A DNA stretch of 64,000 nt from Methylobacter sp. BlB1 (GTDB taxonomy: Bacteria > Pseudomonadota > Gammaproteobacteria > Methylococcales > Methylomonadaceae). The notes beneath the pieces are model-generated. The model ran no database searches. It was not told the origin of the DNA and saw only the letters and a list, made by a program, of their open reading frames with translations. Location of the stretch: contig NZ_JADMKV010000003.1 in assembly GCF_015476545.1 (NCBI RefSeq), forward strand, positions 23,528 to 87,527, in the 5' to 3' direction. A program made the translations under genes and the position numbers. Within the stretch, counting starts at the first letter, position 1. The number at the start of each line of letters is the position of its first letter. Of the stretch, positions 3,943 through 64,000 are shown in pieces.

Positions 3943-4669
3943 TTAAAGCCGCAGGAGTGAGGATGTCGTAGAATTCTGCGCCACAAATTGCTGTCATATG
4001 CAGGTTCGGGCCTGATCTGGCCGTTTCTGGCTTTCTGGAAACGTCTGTCAAATTAAATTTGGCGTAAAAATTATCGCTCCATATGGATTTGCCAACGTGC
4101 AAGTTAGCTGTTGATATCAATCGCAATACCTTGCGCTGATAGGCCCATTGATTTTTAGTGATTGTTTGAAGGCAAGCATTAGATGTAATCACTCAATAAA
4201 GCTCTCCAGCGTCAAACCTAACAAGTTATCTGCCCGCTCGAATCACTGCCTAATCTAACGGCCAGAATAAGATCCAGCGGGCTGCCCGGTATCTCTGTCT
4301 CTATGCTGGCATGAATTTTAGTAGTAAAATTGTTTTTTAAGCGCCATAAGGCTTCGCTCAGTTAGCTGTTCTGCCAGTCGCTCCGACAGCACAGGTATAT
4401 CGCAGGTGTTTGCACTATCGATCGAGACTTTCCGCACCTGGGCATTGACTGCAGTCCGTATGCAAAAAACTTCCCTACTTCATATTCCCAACAGTGTAAA
4501 AACGTTTGAAATTCAAATACGTTCAACGACTATTGGTTAGAAATTTCATTGTTTTTATCGGCTAGTTTCGTTCCGCTATTCATCTGTGCTCAGGATGGGC
4601 AGAGATTTTGTTGGATTTTTATGAAATGTCGATAGAACCTAAACCATTTTCTCTTACTAGAGGTATCTA
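3943..4669. other. Gene-poor stretch, possible decayed coding sequence
   Basis: About 730 bp with no supported gene. A minus-strand 90-residue frame (3920-4192) has no ribosome site and overlaps the previous gene. On the minus strand near 4340-4460 a short open stretch reads like protein (VNAQVRKVSIDSANTC, VLSERLAEQL) and then stops, which could be a gene remnant. The rhlE promoter should lie at the right end. Confidence 0.5.
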
Positions 4670-5974
4670 ATGTCATTTGAACAACTCGGATTAACCGAGG
4701 AACTCCTTAAAGCCGTCGCCGATCAAGGCTATGCCACACCTACACCTGTTCAGCAGCAGGCTATTCCTTTGATTCTGGAAGGTCGCGATGTGCTGGCTGG
4801 CGCTCAGACAGGCACCGGCAAAACGGCGGGTTTCACGCTGCCTTTGCTGCAGCGTTTAATGGTGCATTCAATGCGCCCGCAAAAACCGCGTCCTGTGCGT
4901 GCGCTGATCCTGACGCCGACCCGCGAACTGGCCGTTCAGGTCTATGAGAGCGTCAAAACTTACGGAAAATACTTGCCGCTTCACGCACAAGCGATTTACG
5001 GCGGCGTCAACATCAACTGGCAGATGCGCAATTTGCGTAGGGGGTGCGATATCATCATCGCCACGCCTGGCCGCTTGATCGATCATGTACAGCAGAAAAA
5101 CGTCGACTTGTCGAAGGTGGAAATGCTGGTGCTCGACGAGGCCGATCGCATGCTCGACATGGGATTCATGCCCGATATCCGCAAGATTATCTCGTGGGTG
5201 CCTGCTGACCGCCAGAATCTCCTGTTTTCAGCCACGTATTCGAGCGAGATAAAAGGGTTGGCTGCATCGGTGCTGAATGATCCGGTCGAAGTTGAAGTCG
5301 CAAGGCAAAATGCCACGGCGGACTCTATTACAGAGAAGGTTTATGGCATCAATCGCGAGTACAAACGGGAGTTGCTGTCCTATCTGATCGGCAGCGGCAA
5401 CTGGAAGCAGGTTCTGGTTTTTGTGCGAACCAAACATGGCGCAGACAGGCTGGAAAAACAACTGCAAAAGGACGGCATTCGCGCCGGAGCACTGCACGGC
5501 GATAAGACGCAAGGCGCGCGCAACAAGGTGCTGGAGTATTTTAAAGCCGGCAAGATCGCCGTACTGGTTGCAACCGACATCGCCGCGCGCGGTCTCGATA
5601 TCGACCAGTTGCCGCATGTGGTTAATTTCGATTTGCCGCAGGTGGCCGAAGATTATGTGCACCGTATCGGACGTACCGGACGCGCCGGCTCAAGCGGCGA
5701 AGCGCTGTCGCTGGTATGCCCTGAAGAAGCCTATCTGCTGGCGGAAATAGAAAAACTGCTGAAACGCCAGATCCCGCGCGTTGCCGACACCGGCTATGAA
5801 CCGGTGTCGTTAAAGGTTGTCGATATGCCCAAAAAGAATGCGCCGAATAAAACGACCGGTAAAAAGGATTATCGGCACAAGAAAAGCATCGACAGGCGCC
5901 GGGCCAGCCCCGGCAACAGTGCCGACAAGGAAGTTAGAAGAGGCTCAAGAGGCAAGGCCAGGGCGGCGCGATAA
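4670..5974 (+). CDS. rhlE: DEAD-box ATP-dependent RNA helicase RhlE
   Basis: 434 residues that match RhlE throughout. RhlE unwinds RNA in the cytoplasm and acts in ribosome assembly and RNA turnover. In order are the Q motif ([11 protein letters not shown]), Walker A (AQTGTGKT), PTRELA, TPGRL, the Walker B box DEAD, the SAT motif, and the C-terminal RecA-like domain with TDIAARGLD and [11 protein letters not shown] Lys/Arg-rich tail from about residue 375 is the usual RNA-binding extension. An AGAGGT ribosome site precedes the ATG. It is followed convergently by a small minus-strand gene. Confidence 0.95.
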
Positions 5975-57528: not shown

Positions 57529-57807
57529 CTAAGGTTGAGCGGATTCATTGATTCTACGCCGTTTAACCTGCGCAGGATCTGCGGTGATCTGACGATAGAT
57601 TTCCACGCGATCACCATCCTGAACAGTGGCGTCCAATTTGGCGATTTTGCCGAAAATGCCAACTTTCTGCTTGCTCAAATCGATCTCAGGGCAATGGACT
57701 AATAGCCCCGACAGATGGATGGTCTTTTCCACAGTACAGTTATCGGGCACTTCCAGTCGCAGCCATAATTGCCTATCAGCCTGTGCGTAACATACGCCCA
57801 CATTCAT
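57529..57807 (-). CDS. rnfH: RnfH family protein
   Basis: 92 residues with the ubiquitin-like beta-grasp pattern of RnfH: VCYAQADRQLWLRLEVPDN and VGIFGKIAKLDATVQDGDRVEIY. It ends the rnf operon as in Azotobacter rnf1. Its exact role in assembly or function of the complex is not known. ATGA overlap with rnfE. Confidence 0.9.
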   Translation of the reverse strand: MNVGVCYAQADRQLWLRLEVPDNCTVEKTIHLSGLLVHCPEIDLSKQKVGIFGKIAKLDATVQDGDRVEIYRQITADPAQVKRRRINESAQP

Positions 57808-58502
57808 CGTATTTCCTCCGGTATCGCTTCGGATAATAATGTCGCCTGCGCCTTGTTCGCGACTCGTTTCCGGTCCAGTAACCGTTTGCCGGCAATGATA
57901 AACGCCAGCATAATGAAACCACCCGGAGGCAGCGCCATCAACAAAAAGCCTTTGTAATTAGGAATTAAAGTTAATTCTATAAACTTGAACCCATCGCCGA
58001 GCAGCAACGATGCATTGGCGAATAATGTTCCGGCCGAAGCGATTTCCCTGGCTGCGCCCAAGACGACCAGGGCCATGGTGAAACCTAATCCCATCATGAG
58101 GCCGTCCCATAAGGAGAGCGCAACAGGCTGCCTGGAAGCGAACGATTCGGCGCGCCCCAATATCGCACAATTGGTTACGATAAGCGGAATGAAAAGGCCC
58201 AGTACTTTATGCAGCTCATGCAGCCAGGCATCCATGAGCATATCCACGACGGTAACCACTGCAGCAATCAACAGTACGAAAATGGGAATGCGGACTTCCG
58301 AAGGAATAAGATAACGCGTAACCGAAACGATGGCGTTAGTGCTGATGAGCACCGCCAGGGTTGCCAGTCCCATGCCTAATCCATTAGTGGCTGTAACCGT
58401 AACAGCCAGTAAAGGGCACAATGCCAGGTACTGACTGAATACGATATTATTGTCCCAGATACCGTCCCGCATTATTTTTCGATAGCTTTCGGAAATGAAC
58501 AT
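57804..58502 (-). CDS. rnfE: Rnf complex membrane subunit RnfE
   Basis: 232 residues with about six membrane helices, paralogous to RnfA. Visible: the DNNIVFSQYLALCPLLAVT start, NCAILGRAESFAS with the conserved membrane cysteine, and PPGGFIMLAF. It forms part of the sodium- or proton-linked ferredoxin:NAD+ oxidoreductase core. Confidence 0.95.
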   Translation of the reverse strand: MFISESYRKIMRDGIWDNNIVFSQYLALCPLLAVTVTATNGLGMGLATLAVLISTNAIVSVTRYLIPSEVRIPIFVLLIAAVVTVVDMLMDAWLHELHKVLGLFIPLIVTNCAILGRAESFASRQPVALSLWDGLMMGLGFTMALVVLGAAREIASAGTLFANASLLLGDGFKFIELTLIPNYKGFLLMALPPGGFIMLAFIIAGKRLLDRKRVANKAQATLLSEAIPEEIR

Positions 58503-58517
58503 ATAACCACCTTCTGT

Positions 58518-59228
58518 TTAAGAGCCGATTAACTCGTTACGGTGCCGGTTAAAAAACTGTAAGCCTCGATGAACGGTTTTTACAACCGCTCGGGGCGTAA
58601 TAGTTGCGCCGGCAAACTGGTCAAAAACGCCCCCGTCTTTTTTGACCGCCCATTGTGCATCGGTGAGGCCAAGCAGGGACCGGCCATTGAAATCCAGTAT
58701 CCAGCTTGATTTCGCGATCTCGATTTTATCGCCCAAGCCTGGTGTTTCGGCATGATTGATGACGCGTACGCCCAGAATTTCACCATCGCGATTTATGCCT
58801 ATGACCATGTTGATTATTCCCGAATAACCGTCAGGTGCAGCAAGTTTGAAACAAACCGCGCTGACTTGTCCGGCTTTTCTGGCGATATAAACGGTCGTTT
58901 CATTGGCGCCCAGGTTATCCTCAGCAGACGGGACAGTTACCGTATCCTGCAGCAAATCATTGTCATGCAATGTCGACGGTACAACTTCTGCCAGTGATTT
59001 CTGTAGATCTTCATCCAGCCGCTGCTGGATGGCATCGTGTGTACTGCAGTGGGTGACGCCGAGCAGAAAGCTGGCGATCAGGGCGAATCCAGCCAGAACA
59101 CCGGTCTGAAATGCCAATCTGGGCCTCAGCCGTTCAAGGTTCGATGGCTCCAGCCAGTGTTTCAGGAACTCCTTATAGGTGATCGCTTCTTCGATCAGCC
59201 ACTTGATGTGGTCCGAATCAGATTTCAT
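58518..59228 (-). CDS. rnfG: Rnf complex FMN-binding subunit RnfG
   Basis: 236 residues. One N-terminal membrane helix (FALIASFLLGVTHC) anchors a periplasmic FMN domain. The covalent FMN site is the second threonine of FAGATITPRAV near the C-terminus. The HAETPGLGDKIEIAKSSW motif is typical. ATGA overlap with rnfD. Confidence 0.95.
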   Translation of the reverse strand: MKSDSDHIKWLIEEAITYKEFLKHWLEPSNLERLRPRLAFQTGVLAGFALIASFLLGVTHCSTHDAIQQRLDEDLQKSLAEVVPSTLHDNDLLQDTVTVPSAEDNLGANETTVYIARKAGQVSAVCFKLAAPDGYSGIINMVIGINRDGEILGVRVINHAETPGLGDKIEIAKSSWILDFNGRSLLGLTDAQWAVKKDGGVFDQFAGATITPRAVVKTVHRGLQFFNRHRNELIGS

Positions 59229-60325
59229 TGCTTATGCTCCTGTACAGCGACTTTTTGCGCCAAAGGCTTTCCGTTGCGATAGCGGCCGTATATCCTGGGC
59301 CGCATGTAATGGTCTATCAGCGGTGTAGCCGCATTCATGAGCAGCACGGCAAAACCGGCGCCTTCGGGATAATTCCCCCAAGTGCGGATAACAAAGATCA
59401 ACAGCCCGCAGCCTGCGCCGAAAACGAGCTGTCCTGCCGGTGTATTCGGCGATGTGACATAATCCGTGGCGATAAAAAACGCGGCGCACATCAAAGCGCC
59501 CGAACTCAAGTGTACTAACGGTGAAACATAATGCTGTCCATCCATCAAATGGAAAATGCCTGACAGTACCGTGACAGTCAGTAACAGAGAAATCGGGATA
59601 TGCCACTTGATCACGCCCTGCCGGATCAGCCAGATTCCGCCTGCAGCCAGCAGCAGCGAGGAGGTCTCGCCCAGGCTGCCGCGCGTCCAGCCCAGAAAAT
59701 CCAGGAAAATGGAATGATCCGCCAGGATGTCCGGCAGCCAGTGCTGTTGAGAAAATTCGGTCTTGATATAGCCCAGCGTCGTCGCGCCGGTCATTGCATC
59801 GGCAGAGGCCATGCCACCCAGGCCGGAGAAGGTGATTGACCAGCTCTCGATAAGGCCGGGCGCGTGTGCCGAGAAAACAGGCGCGACATTGGGCCACGTC
59901 GTCATTTCGATAGGAAAAGAGATCAGCAGGGCGATCCGGGCCAGCATGGCCGGATTGAACAGATTCTGCCCCAGGCCGCCGTAAACCTGCTTGCCCAGTA
60001 TAATTGCAATTCCGGCACCGGCAACGCCTATCCACCAGGGCGCCCACGGAGGCAGCGTCATGGCGACCAGCCAGCCGCTCAAGAGCGCCGAGCCATCCAT
60101 GATCACCGGCCTGGCAACCTTGCCTGCCAGACGCAGACAGAAGGCTTCAAACAGAACGGCAGACAGCAGGGTAATAATGAACAGATTCAGGGCGGGCCAG
60201 CCGAAACAGAAAAGCCCGAACGCCGTCGCCGGCGATATCGCCAGCATCACCTGCCGCATAATGTGCTGGACTGTCGTGTTCGCTCCTATATGAGCGCCGC
60301 TGCTGAGCTTGCTGTGTACAATCAT
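59225..60325 (-). CDS. rnfD: Rnf complex membrane subunit RnfD
   Basis: 366 residues with eight or nine helices. The covalent FMN threonine is in DAMTGATTLGY. Also visible are GKQVYGGLGQNLFNPAMLAR and FGAGCGLLIFVIRTWGNYPEG, standard in RnfD/NqrB. It overlaps rnfC by 4 bases (ATGA). Confidence 0.95.
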   Translation of the reverse strand: MIVHSKLSSGAHIGANTTVQHIMRQVMLAISPATAFGLFCFGWPALNLFIITLLSAVLFEAFCLRLAGKVARPVIMDGSALLSGWLVAMTLPPWAPWWIGVAGAGIAIILGKQVYGGLGQNLFNPAMLARIALLISFPIEMTTWPNVAPVFSAHAPGLIESWSITFSGLGGMASADAMTGATTLGYIKTEFSQQHWLPDILADHSIFLDFLGWTRGSLGETSSLLLAAGGIWLIRQGVIKWHIPISLLLTVTVLSGIFHLMDGQHYVSPLVHLSSGALMCAAFFIATDYVTSPNTPAGQLVFGAGCGLLIFVIRTWGNYPEGAGFAVLLMNAATPLIDHYMRPRIYGRYRNGKPLAQKVAVQEHKQ

Positions 60326-61818
60326 GCCAATGTTCCTTGTTCGTTTTGTAAACGTTCTCTTTCGGCTTTGGCCGCCAAACGCGCCTGTTCTTCTTCTTGC
60401 TGCTGTTTTTTGATGCGGTCCATGCGCGCATTGCGTTCGTCCATCAGACGCTTAGTGTGCTCCGATTTGTGCTGTGCCTGCTGCCTGGCTGCGAGTTCGC
60501 CGCTGGCGTATTTGAAATACTGCACCAACGGAATGTTGGAAGGGCAGACATAAGAACAGGAGCCGCAACTGATGCAGTCCTTGAGGCCGATGTCGACGGC
60601 CGCGTCGAGCTGGTTGTTGCGGATCCGGTTGGCCATCTCCAGCGGCAGCAGGCCGGCCGGGCAGGCGCTGACGCATTGCGCGCAACGGATGCAGGGCTGC
60701 TGGGCTTTGTTTCGGATCTCCTCCTGAGTCAAGGCCAGGATGCCGCTGGAAGCCTTGACGATAGGCAGGCGGCTATGCGGCAGTGCATCGCCCATCATCG
60801 GCCCGCCCATGATGATGCGTTTGGCAGCTGTTTGATCAACGCCGCAGAAGGCGAACAGTTCACTGATCAGCGTGCCGATGGGCACTTCGATATTCATCGG
60901 CGAGGCTATGGCACCGCCCGAGACTGTCACGATGCGGCTGACCAGCGGCTGATTGAAGCGGACGGCCCGGTGCACCGCATAGGCTGTGCCGACGTTATGC
61001 ATGATCACACCCACGTCGGCGGAGCGCCCGCCGGCCGGCACTTCCTGGCCAATGAGGTAGCGGATCAACTGTCTGTCCCAGCCCATCGGATAACGGGTCG
61101 GCACCTGTTCAACCTTGATGAACGGGTAGGGCAGGCCGGCCTTCCGCATGGCTGCATAGGCTTCGGGCTTGTTATCCTCGATGCCGACAATCGCCTGTCC
61201 GGTTTCCATGCCATGCAGCATCAGTCGTATGCCGTCAATGATGCCCGCGGCGCGCTCCTGCATCAAGCGGTCGTCACAGGTCAGATACGGCTCGCATTCG
61301 CCGCCGTTGATCAGCAGCGTGTGAATTCTGTTTTCACGGCCCAGATTCAATTTGACGGCCGACGGGAAGGCGGCTCCGCCAAGGCCTACGATGCCGGCCG
61401 CGCCGACGCGCAGGCTGACCTCTTCGGGTGCCAGTTGAAACGGGTCATCGACAGGCGGAGCGCTGATCCACTTGTCCTCGCCATCGGTTTCCAGCACGAC
61501 CGTTCGTATCGGCAGCGCCGAGGGGTGCGGTGCCGGATAATCGTCGATATCGATGATCACTCCCGAACTCGATGCATGCACCGGTGCGGAAATCATCCCC
61601 TGGCTGTGAGCCAGCAATTGCCCTTTCAGTACATGATCGCCGACCCTGACCACCGGTTCCGCGGCTTTGCCGACATGCTGCTGCAACGGGATATAGAGTT
61701 TTTTTGGCAGCGGTAAATCAATCACGATAGGCTGGCTGGAGGTCGAGGCCTTATGCGCCTCGGCATGAACCCCGCCGCGAATGCGCGGCTCTTTAAACAG
61801 GGTGGACAGGCTCAGCAT
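60322..61818 (-). CDS. rnfC: Rnf complex iron-sulphur subunit RnfC
   Basis: 498 residues. A Rossmann-like NADH/FMN region (GIVGLGGAAFPSAVKLNL, LLINGGECEPYLTCDD) precedes two 4Fe-4S cluster motifs (CIRCAQCVSACPAG and CISCGSCSYVCPS). A short charged coiled tail ends the protein. It is thought to be the NADH-side entry or exit module of the complex. Overlaps rnfB by 7 bases. Confidence 0.96.
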   Translation of the reverse strand: MLSLSTLFKEPRIRGGVHAEAHKASTSSQPIVIDLPLPKKLYIPLQQHVGKAAEPVVRVGDHVLKGQLLAHSQGMISAPVHASSSGVIIDIDDYPAPHPSALPIRTVVLETDGEDKWISAPPVDDPFQLAPEEVSLRVGAAGIVGLGGAAFPSAVKLNLGRENRIHTLLINGGECEPYLTCDDRLMQERAAGIIDGIRLMLHGMETGQAIVGIEDNKPEAYAAMRKAGLPYPFIKVEQVPTRYPMGWDRQLIRYLIGQEVPAGGRSADVGVIMHNVGTAYAVHRAVRFNQPLVSRIVTVSGGAIASPMNIEVPIGTLISELFAFCGVDQTAAKRIIMGGPMMGDALPHSRLPIVKASSGILALTQEEIRNKAQQPCIRCAQCVSACPAGLLPLEMANRIRNNQLDAAVDIGLKDCISCGSCSYVCPSNIPLVQYFKYASGELAARQQAQHKSEHTKRLMDERNARMDRIKKQQQEEEQARLAAKAERERLQNEQGTLA

Positions 61819-62363
61819 GTGGCAACTCCTTCGGCAACAGCCGGTTTGGGCCAGCGCCAGTTCCGCAAGGTGGCCTCAACCGGATGCATTTGCAGACACT
61901 CAGTCGGGCAGACGGCTATGCATTTCTTGCAGCCGATGCAGGCGTCACTGATCACGGCATGAATCTGCTTGGGCGCGCCGACGATCGCATCGGTGGGGCA
62001 GACCTTGAAGCAGCGCGTGCAGCCAATGCAGGTATCTTCACTTACTCTGGCGACCAGCAGTTCTGGGTCTTGTACATCGTTCAGATCGATTTCCACGCCC
62101 AGCAATTTTGCCAGCTGCTCGGCCAGCGAACTGCCGCCGGGCGGGCACAGCGTGGGCGGCGCCTCGCCTGCGGCTAGCGCTTCGGCTGCCGGCCTGCAGC
62201 CCGGATAACCGCATTGGCCGCATTGAGAGCCGGGCATTAATGCTTCCAGTTCATCGACGATCGGGTTGCTTTCAACTTTCAGATACCTGGCGGCGATACC
62301 AAGCAGGAACCCTAAAATTAGCCCTAATGTCGTCAAACTTACAATGGCAGTTAAAATGTACAT
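61812..62363 (-). CDS. rnfB: Rnf complex ferredoxin-type subunit RnfB
   Basis: 183 residues. An N-terminal membrane helix precedes a CGQCGYPGC cluster and two ferredoxin-like 4Fe-4S motifs (CIGCTRCFKVCP, CIGCKKCIAVCP). RnfB passes electrons between ferredoxin or flavodoxin and the membrane part. Located between rnfA and rnfC as in other rnf operons. Confidence 0.96.
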   Translation of the reverse strand: MYILTAIVSLTTLGLILGFLLGIAARYLKVESNPIVDELEALMPGSQCGQCGYPGCRPAAEALAAGEAPPTLCPPGGSSLAEQLAKLLGVEIDLNDVQDPELLVARVSEDTCIGCTRCFKVCPTDAIVGAPKQIHAVISDACIGCKKCIAVCPTECLQMHPVEATLRNWRWPKPAVAEGVATC

Positions 62364-62381
62364 GATGTCCCCTCAGGCAGG

Positions 62382-62960
62382 CTATTTGTACAGTCCGGCG
62401 AAACCCATGAAAGCCAGCGATAAGATTCCGGCCGTGATAAAGGCGATCGGCGTGCCGGCAAACAGGCTCGGCACGCTCATCAAGGCCAGGCGCTCGCGCA
62501 GGCCCGCGAACAGCACCATGACCAGCGTAAAGCCGATGGCCGACCCAAAACCGAAAACCATGCTTTGCATGAACCCGTATTGCGCCTGCACGTTCAGCAG
62601 GGCCACGCCCAGGACCGCACAATTGGTGGTGATCAGCGGCAGGAAAATCCCCAGTATCTGATACAGCACCGGGCTGATTTTATGGACCACCATCTCGGTG
62701 AACTGAACCACAGCCGCAATCACCAGAATAAAGGCCAGTATGCGCAGAAACTCAATATGGAACGGCGCCAGAATGAAATGCTCGATCACCCAACTGGCGA
62801 TGGCCGCCAGCGTCAGCACGAAGGTGGTTGCCATGCCCATGCCTAGTGCCGTATCCAGCTTGTTGGACACGCCCATGAACGGGCAAAGCCCCAGGAATTT
62901 GACCAACACCACGTTATTGACAAGGGCAGTGCCTAATAAAAGTAACAAATATTCACTCAC
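62382..62960 (-). CDS. rnfA: Rnf complex membrane subunit RnfA
   Basis: About 192 residues and six helices: [33 protein letters not shown], and [13 protein letters not shown] with the conserved cysteine. GTG 62960 is chosen because it gives the family length and has GGA at -9 on the minus strand; the predicted sigma-54 start point near 62983 lies downstream of the alternative TTG at 62987, which rules that one out. First gene of rnfABCDGEH. Confidence 0.94.
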
Positions 62961-62993
62961 TGTTTTTTCCAAGCTGTTTTTGCTCAAAATACA

Positions 62994-63007
62994 GCATCAA
63001 GTGTGCC
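62994..63007 (-). promoter_or_regulatory. Sigma-54 promoter of the rnf operon
   Basis: On the minus strand TGGCAC at -24 and ATGCT at -12 have GG and GC exactly 10 bases apart. The predicted transcription start is near 62983, about 23 bases before GTG 62960. Confidence 0.82.
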
Positions 63008-63060
63008 AGATTGACAAAAACAGCCATTCATAAGCTAAATGCCTAAAACGAGTGCGGATA

Positions 63061-63077
63061 TGCACCTGAATGGTGCG
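63061..63077. promoter_or_regulatory. NtrC-type binding site
   Basis: TGCACC-TGAAT-GGTGCG matches the NtrC half-sites GCACY-N5-GGTGC perfectly. Its centre is about 87 bases from the predicted rnf start and 177 bases from the predicted nifL start, so its target is not certain. Confidence 0.7.
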
Positions 63078-63084
63078 TAAATCC

Positions 63085-63100
63085 TGTCGGAATTAGGACA
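63085..63100. promoter_or_regulatory. NifA upstream activator sequence 1
   Basis: TGT-N10-ACA, the NifA consensus, ends 78 bases from the -24 element of the rnf promoter (centre at about -110). Confidence 0.75.
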
Positions 63101-63124
63101 TAACCCCACAGCGCATAATTTTTA

Positions 63125-63140
63125 TGTCGCAAACCTTACA
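63125..63140. promoter_or_regulatory. NifA upstream activator sequence 2
   Basis: A second TGT-N10-ACA, 40 bases from the first, ends 78-79 bases before the -24 element of the nifL promoter (centre at about -114). Confidence 0.75.
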
Positions 63141-63218
63141 TTAAGTCAGGTGCAACCAATAAGGCGGTAGAGGTGATGCTGCATACGTGCCTTTCATTTT
63201 TTAATTCCCTTATAAAAT

Positions 63219-63235
63219 TTGGCTTCATTTTTGCT
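63219..63235 (+). promoter_or_regulatory. Sigma-54 promoter of nifL
   Basis: TTGGC at -24 and TTGCT at -12, with GG (63221-63222) and GC (63233-63234) exactly 10 bases apart. The predicted start is near 63246, 28 bases before the nifL ATG. Confidence 0.75.
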
Positions 63236-63273
63236 TGAGTGGTTAAGCTATTGTTCAATTCCTGACATGACGT

Positions 63274-64000
63274 ATGAAAAAAACATCGTTGCAATTTTTG
63301 TGGACTCACAGCAGTAAAGGCAAATGCATTAATAAAGAGCTTGAAGCCATTATGCTCGGAGAGGACATCGACAACCGGGGGCCATGTGGGCTGTTTATCG
63401 AAACGGTCGAGCAGGCGCCTATCGCTATTTCCATTACCGACAAGAAAGCCAGCATTCTTTATGTGAATGAGGAATTCACCTTGGTCACCGGTTATAACCC
63501 GGCCGATATCCTGGGTCAAAACGAATCCCTGCTATCGGACAAGTCCACGCCGCGGCATGTCTATCACGATTTGTGGCGCACCATCAGCAGCAAAAAAGTT
63601 TGGCATGGCCGGCTGGTTAACCGGCATAAGTCAGGTCATCGTTATCTGGCTGACCTGACCATCACGCCCATGCTGAACAGCGAGAAGCAAATTACGCACT
63701 ATATCGGCATGCATCGCGATGTGACTGCTGCCTATGAATCCGAGAAAAAAGTGCACAATCAGAAACTGCTGATTGAATCCGTACTCAATTCATCGCCGAT
63801 TGCTATGGTGGTGCTCGATGACCAGGATCGGGTCATTCTGGATAACCAGTTGTATAAAGCGTTGGTTACCGATCTTAACAAAGGCGAGCCGGCGCTGTTT
63901 TTTCTGAAGCTGCTGCGCGATGAGATGGGCGATTTATGGCAGCAGCTGCAACTCGCCGAACAGGGCTTCAATAACCGGGAGTTCAGGGTGGAAACCCGCG
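63274..64000 (+). CDS. nifL: Nitrogen fixation regulatory protein NifL, 3' truncated by window
   Basis: The frame is open from ATG 63274 to the window end (242 codons). It matches NifL, the redox- and nitrogen-sensing antiactivator of NifA. PAS1 runs from about residue 42: VEQAPIAISITDKKASILYV, TLVTGYNPADILGQNESLL, KVWHGRLVNRHKSGHRYLADLT, and IGMHRDVTAAYESEKKVHNQ, followed by PAS2 (LNSSPIAMVVLDDQDRV). PAS1 of NifL carries FAD. The kinase-like C-terminus and nifA should lie beyond the window. ATG 63352 is an alternative start. Confidence 0.93.
   Translation, partial: MKKTSLQFLWTHSSKGKCINKELEAIMLGEDIDNRGPCGLFIETVEQAPIAISITDKKASILYVNEEFTLVTGYNPADILGQNESLLSDKSTPRHVYHDLWRTISSKKVWHGRLVNRHKSGHRYLADLTITPMLNSEKQITHYIGMHRDVTAAYESEKKVHNQKLLIESVLNSSPIAMVVLDDQDRVILDNQLYKALVTDLNKGEPALFFLKLLRDEMGDLWQQLQLAEQGFNNREFRVETR

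Follow-up and report, generated by a model that had tools for sequence, protein, structure and literature searches.

Divergent rnf and nifLA operons with NifA sites are already known in Azotobacter, Pseudomonas stutzeri, and Azoarcus. In Klebsiella, nifF lies divergent from nifLA. The Klebsiella nifLA operon is activated by NtrC (Minchin et al. 1989, as cited in PMC8443478), and in enterics no rnf adjoins nifLA (PMC6490700). A 2019 review, which does not decide why the two operons lie together, describes a divergent rnf-nifLA arrangement for most groups that have NifL and lists A. vinelandii, P. stutzeri, and A. olearius as species in which NifA controls rnf1 (PMC6490700). For P. stutzeri A1501, two papers assign NifA/sigma-54 (RpoN) elements to both rnf and nifLA (PMC2820453) and describe nifLA and rnfA as dependent on NtrC and as carrying putative NtrC sites (PMC8443478). 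Tandem NifA sites have been predicted upstream of both rnfA1 and nifL in Azoarcus BH72 (PMC3916325). The nif genes of A. vinelandii are expressed without a requirement for NtrC, as stated in PMC8443478, and its nifLA is described as little changed by conditions (PMC9866876).

Here, we analyzed a 64,000-nucleotide stretch of the genome of Methylobacter sp. BlB1 (i.e., the window), a Methylobacter-type methanotroph closest, among named species, to M. luteus and M. marinus, in which rnfABCDGEH is divergent from nifLA. The locus resembles the rnf1-nifLA region of P. stutzeri A1501 in gene order, divergence, predicted NifA/sigma-54 dependence, and putative NtrC sites (PMC2820453, PMC8443478); we found no analysis of helical register or tandem spacing in the available text of these papers. 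It shares with the rnf1-nifLA region of Azoarcus (A. olearius) BH72 the tandem NifA-type sites, which were predicted there upstream of rnfA1 and nifL (PMC3916325). Azoarcus and A. vinelandii both have a NifA-regulated rnf1, as proposed here, but A. vinelandii nifLA is described as NtrC independent, unlike in our model (PMC6490700, PMC8443478). In Klebsiella, an electron-carrier gene is likewise divergent from an NtrC-activated nifLA, although the flavodoxin gene nifF replaces rnf. In the open-licence literature, we found no description of a constrained tandem pair, of a fixed-offset dyad-UAS1-UAS2 order, or of an rnf side that is locked while the nifL side floats, and our literature search yielded nothing specific on the rnf-nifL control regions of methanotrophs.

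Genes of the rnf-nifLA locus

The gene identities given in the initial annotation hold, since each of rnfA, rnfB, rnfC, rnfD, rnfG, rnfE, rnfH, nifL, and nifA scores above its NCBIfam cut-off (Table 1); nifA lies directly 3' of nifL on the extended contig L134 and scores 659.7 bits. An RnfA search of the genome returned one rnf cluster and two further RnfA-like matches in nqrDE order. The rnf operon therefore appears to be single copy, judging from the D-then-E gene order, typical of nqrDE, at the other matches. The genome thus apparently also contains two Na+-NQR clusters (G000 C163:10062-11289 and C142:22531-23765). A single nifH and an ntrC exceed their family cut-offs, and TGT-N10-ACA sites together with -24/-12 elements are also present at nifH and nifB.

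The initial annotation placed the rnfA start at GTG 62960 on the grounds that TTG 62987 lies upstream of the predicted mRNA start. The codon itself is right, with the start kept in 50 relatives (GTG in 44 and ATG in 6); a GGA or similar purine stretch stands just 5' of it in the relatives displayed. The argument from the mRNA start is insufficient alone because a second in-frame TTG, at 62972, is downstream of the predicted start at 62982 and hence also inside the predicted mRNA.

Table 1. Features of the rnfA-nifL region (positions within the window)
Feature	Position	Strand	Remarks
rnfA, first gene of rnfABCDGEH (operon 57529-62960)	62382..62960	-	GTG start at 62960; NCBIfam rnfA/RsxA above cut-off
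rnf operon sigma-54 (-24/-12) element, TGGCACACTTGATGCT	63008..62993	-	Predicted start 62982
NtrC-type dyad, TGCACC-TGAAT-GGTGC	63061..63076	.	Center at ~-87 from rnf start and -177 from nifL start
UAS1, NifA-type upstream activator site, TGTCGGAATTAGGACA	63085..63100	.	TGT-N10-ACA; 14/16 columns invariant in the genus
UAS2, NifA-type upstream activator site, TGTCGCAAACCTTACA	63125..63140	.	40 bp from UAS1; 13/16 columns invariant in the genus
nifLA sigma-54 (-24/-12) element, TGGCTTCATTTTTGCT	63220..63235	+	Predicted start 63246
nifL (5' part; the gene continues past the window edge, with nifA and then nifB after it)	63274..63999	+	NCBIfam nifL, 600.5 bits

Promoters and NifA-type sites

The two sigma-54 promoters and two TGT-N10-ACA sites that had been annotated between rnfA and nifL were confirmed. 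The nifL promoter element is a poorer match to the consensus than the rnf element, and neither sigma-70-like promoters nor terminators were found in the rnfA-nifL region. Taken singly, TGT-N10-ACA is no commoner than chance (6 occurrences in the window versus 11.5 expected). Pattern searches of the 4.87-Mb genome, from which all genome-wide statistics derive, located the combination of a sigma-54 element, 60 to 90 bp, and TGT-N10-ACA at 8 places, versus none for the reversed control pattern; 3 of these 8 combinations (rnf, nifL, and nifB) fall within 5 kb at the window locus. A third TGT-N10-ACA, at 63252-63267, that the initial annotation does not mention is probably a chance occurrence; three sister species (L015, L016, and L017) lack it.

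For comparison, we used 55 distinct rnfA-nifL intergenic regions from the family to which the window belongs. Both promoters and the NifA-type pair recur in all 55 regions, with UAS1 imperfect in one (L039), and these four elements are therefore not due to chance; the alignment with relatives suggested in the initial annotation thus found its sites kept. Both promoters have GG-N10-GC in every region. Among four Methylobacter species, the elements are better conserved than the DNA around them: 15 of the 16 columns of the nifL -24/-12 element are invariant, as are most columns of UAS1 and UAS2 (Table 1), versus 35 of the 79 columns of the spacer from UAS2 to nifL. Divergent rnfA-nifL loci from other gammaproteobacterial families also have the tandem pair in 10 of 12 cases (8 at 39 to 42 bp and 2 at 33 bp), which indicates that the island is an old feature rather than an invention of methanotrophs.

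The linker between the NifA sites (63101-63124) contains a CGACA...GATAAAAAT-like stretch that is kept in many family members and includes no enriched IHF match. A search of the family regions gave no 9/9 match to an IHF site. Near-matches on the rnf side occur in 18 loci versus 7.7 in shuffles, a modest enrichment only, and the only near-match in the window, at 63202, is on the nifL side.

Spacing relative to the two promoters

In the window, the site centers lie at -110.5 from the predicted rnf start (UAS1) and at -113.5 from the predicted nifL start (UAS2), so the distances in the initial annotation are correct. The mirror symmetry that it read from them is not general: only 6 of the 55 loci are symmetric within 4 bp, four of these belong to the genus of the window, and we rejected symmetry as a design feature on this count. 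UAS1 and UAS2 are spaced 39 to 42 bp apart in 55/55 loci (including L039, with its imperfect UAS1). The center of UAS1 is located at -97.5 to -101.5 from the predicted rnf start in 24 loci and at -109.5 to -112.5 in another 24, with no locus between these classes. Hence, two positions separated by one helical turn, about -100 and about -111, account for 48 of the 55 loci, and the other seven are at -88.5, -89.5, -120.5, -134.5, -136.5, and -177.5 (twice). The distance state switches at least eight times on a NifL tree that was built quickly and has weak support at many of its forks. Such a two-class pattern would be expected from tolerance of one-turn but not of half-turn changes. The rnf phasing looks strong by eye, but a conservative test, in which the distances were collapsed to seven clusters, gave a P value of 0.058, which makes it suggestive rather than proved; this cluster-level value was used in place of simple Rayleigh P values, which were set aside because related loci inflate them.

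On the nifL side, the distance from UAS2 to the start ranges from -70 to -370 across the 55 loci with no phasing (Monte Carlo P value of 0.99), and none was found either in the subset with spacers under 165 bp. The range of UAS2 from rnf is constrained, while its distance from nifL drifts by up to 300 bp. With the rnf distance constrained, the nifL distance unphased, and the symmetry rare, the UAS pair belongs with rnf by its geometry and the symmetry can be put down to local coincidence, so that the assignment of one site to each promoter is unsupported. NifA control of rnf, which the initial annotation had also predicted, is well supported: throughout the family, both sites keep to a constrained distance from this promoter, and rnf1 is reported to be controlled in the same way in A. 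vinelandii, P. stutzeri, and Azoarcus.

In several Methylobacter-like metagenome-assembled genomes (MAGs; L050, L055, L024, L052, and L069), UAS2 and the nifL promoter are separated by an expanded spacer of ~290 to 350 bp. In one relative (L068, intergenic positions 300 to 1588), a reading frame for a PAS and PP2C-like (RsbU-type) phosphatase is flanked by identical copies of the nifL -24/-12 element (TGGCGTTATAATTGCT), one on each side, which looks as though a gene had been inserted into the nifL promoter and the promoter duplicated.

NtrC-type dyad

Upstream of the nifL -24/-12 element, we identified a dyad of the GCACY-N5-RGTGC type that was absent from the initial annotation. By its match to the NtrC consensus GCACY-N5-RGTGC, we take the dyad at 63061-63076 to be a near-perfect NtrC site. 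TGCACY-N5-RGTGC has 6 matches in the 4.87-Mb genome, and its reversed control has none. Several of the other five are inside long reading frames, including a clpB-like one, and we could not link any of the five to a nitrogen gene. As a positive control, the same type of dyad is present upstream of glnK in this genome, with one copy ~88 bp before the sigma-54 start, a distance nearly equal to that from the dyad to the rnf start here. The glnK promoter region (L147, 4106-4759) has a sigma-54 element at 4135 on the minus strand and NtrC-type dyads at 4204 and 4472; a second sigma-54-like element there faces a further gene at 4759.

Among the four Methylobacter species, all 10 columns of the dyad arms are invariant versus 1 of the 6 core columns, which is the signature expected of a bound palindrome. 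The offset between the dyad and UAS1 is fixed at 24 bp in most family loci and is 44 to 46 bp, two turns further, in some deeper lineages; in the class-wide set, a perfect NtrC dyad precedes UAS1 by 26 bp in L155. Outside the genus, few loci have the full palindrome; a half-site is all that many relatives keep, and Methylovulum-like lineages are without the dyad; the mean dyad score across the family is 7.9, versus 6.2 for shuffles. From its offset to UAS1 and the unphased distance from the UAS pair to nifL, the dyad would be out of helical register with the nifL promoter. It may nonetheless offer a second candidate activator, NtrC, for either promoter.

Activators and promoters served

The region is probably a composite sigma-54 enhancer island common to the divergent rnfABCDGEH and nifLA operons, with NifA on UAS1 and UAS2 and phosphorylated NtrC (NtrC-P) probably on the dyad. 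The geometry of the window and of three sister species would also suit the arrangement put forward in the initial annotation, i.e., two independent half-regions in which UAS1 serves rnf and UAS2 serves nifL, each from about -110, with NifA as the sole activator. The scarcity of symmetric loci makes this highly improbable, as do the tethering of UAS2 to UAS1 and its constraint relative to rnf but not to nifL, and the presence of a conserved NtrC-type dyad. If the NifA pair instead acted on rnf alone and NtrC switched on nifLA through the dyad, with no NifA feedback, it would be understandable that only the rnf distance is constrained, and nifLA is indeed NtrC activated in Klebsiella and P. stutzeri (PMC8443478). 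We nevertheless consider an rnf-only role somewhat unlikely, given two Methylococcales loci outside the family (L124 and L125) in which a tandem pair, with a spacing of 40 and 42 bp, respectively, is retained 58 to 59 bp before the nifL promoter. The gene upstream of nifL in both is codirectional and is not rnfA, so this pair could hardly serve anything except nifL. The tandem NifA sites assigned to nifL in Azoarcus BH72 (PMC3916325) argue in the same direction. NifA feedback on nifL, another prediction of the initial annotation, is made plausible by L124 and L125 but gains no support from the geometry; with these loci and the Azoarcus BH72 predictions, we retain it as likely but secondary. 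NtrC is plausibly an equally good candidate for the activator of nifL.

The dyad itself might be bound by another factor or be a chance palindrome, leaving NtrC without a direct role; the exact matches inside unrelated-looking reading frames and the loss of the full dyad in several lineages are compatible with this. Its invariant arms around a variable core, its fixed offset from UAS1, and the occurrence of the same motif at the glnK sigma-54 promoter render such an explanation rather unlikely.

For the shared island that we favor, we infer which proteins bind, in what order they act, and which promoter NtrC serves from the elements, their conservation, and their distances. NifA would bind UAS1 and UAS2 in tandem, about four helical turns apart, and activate the rnf promoter from positions near -110 and -150. 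The dyad is probably bound by NtrC-P, which would thereby supply the nitrogen-starvation input. As in Klebsiella and P. stutzeri, the first operon that NtrC switches on is most likely nifLA, and it perhaps activates rnf too. NifA made from nifLA would then drive rnf, and probably nifLA itself, out of the same island.

The linkage of rnf to nif extends throughout Methylobacter-type methanotrophs, for which a direct NtrC input is now predicted. More tentatively, it is possible that, in nitrogen fixers across the Gammaproteobacteria, a single island, registered to rnf and floating with respect to nifL, passes both operons from the control of NtrC to that of NifA. If so, electron supply would be geometrically favored, and the feedback on nifLA would be tuned by spacer length. 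A shared enhancer coupling the electron supply of nitrogenase to its regulators would offer a testable answer to the question of why rnf and nifLA are colocated (PMC6490700).
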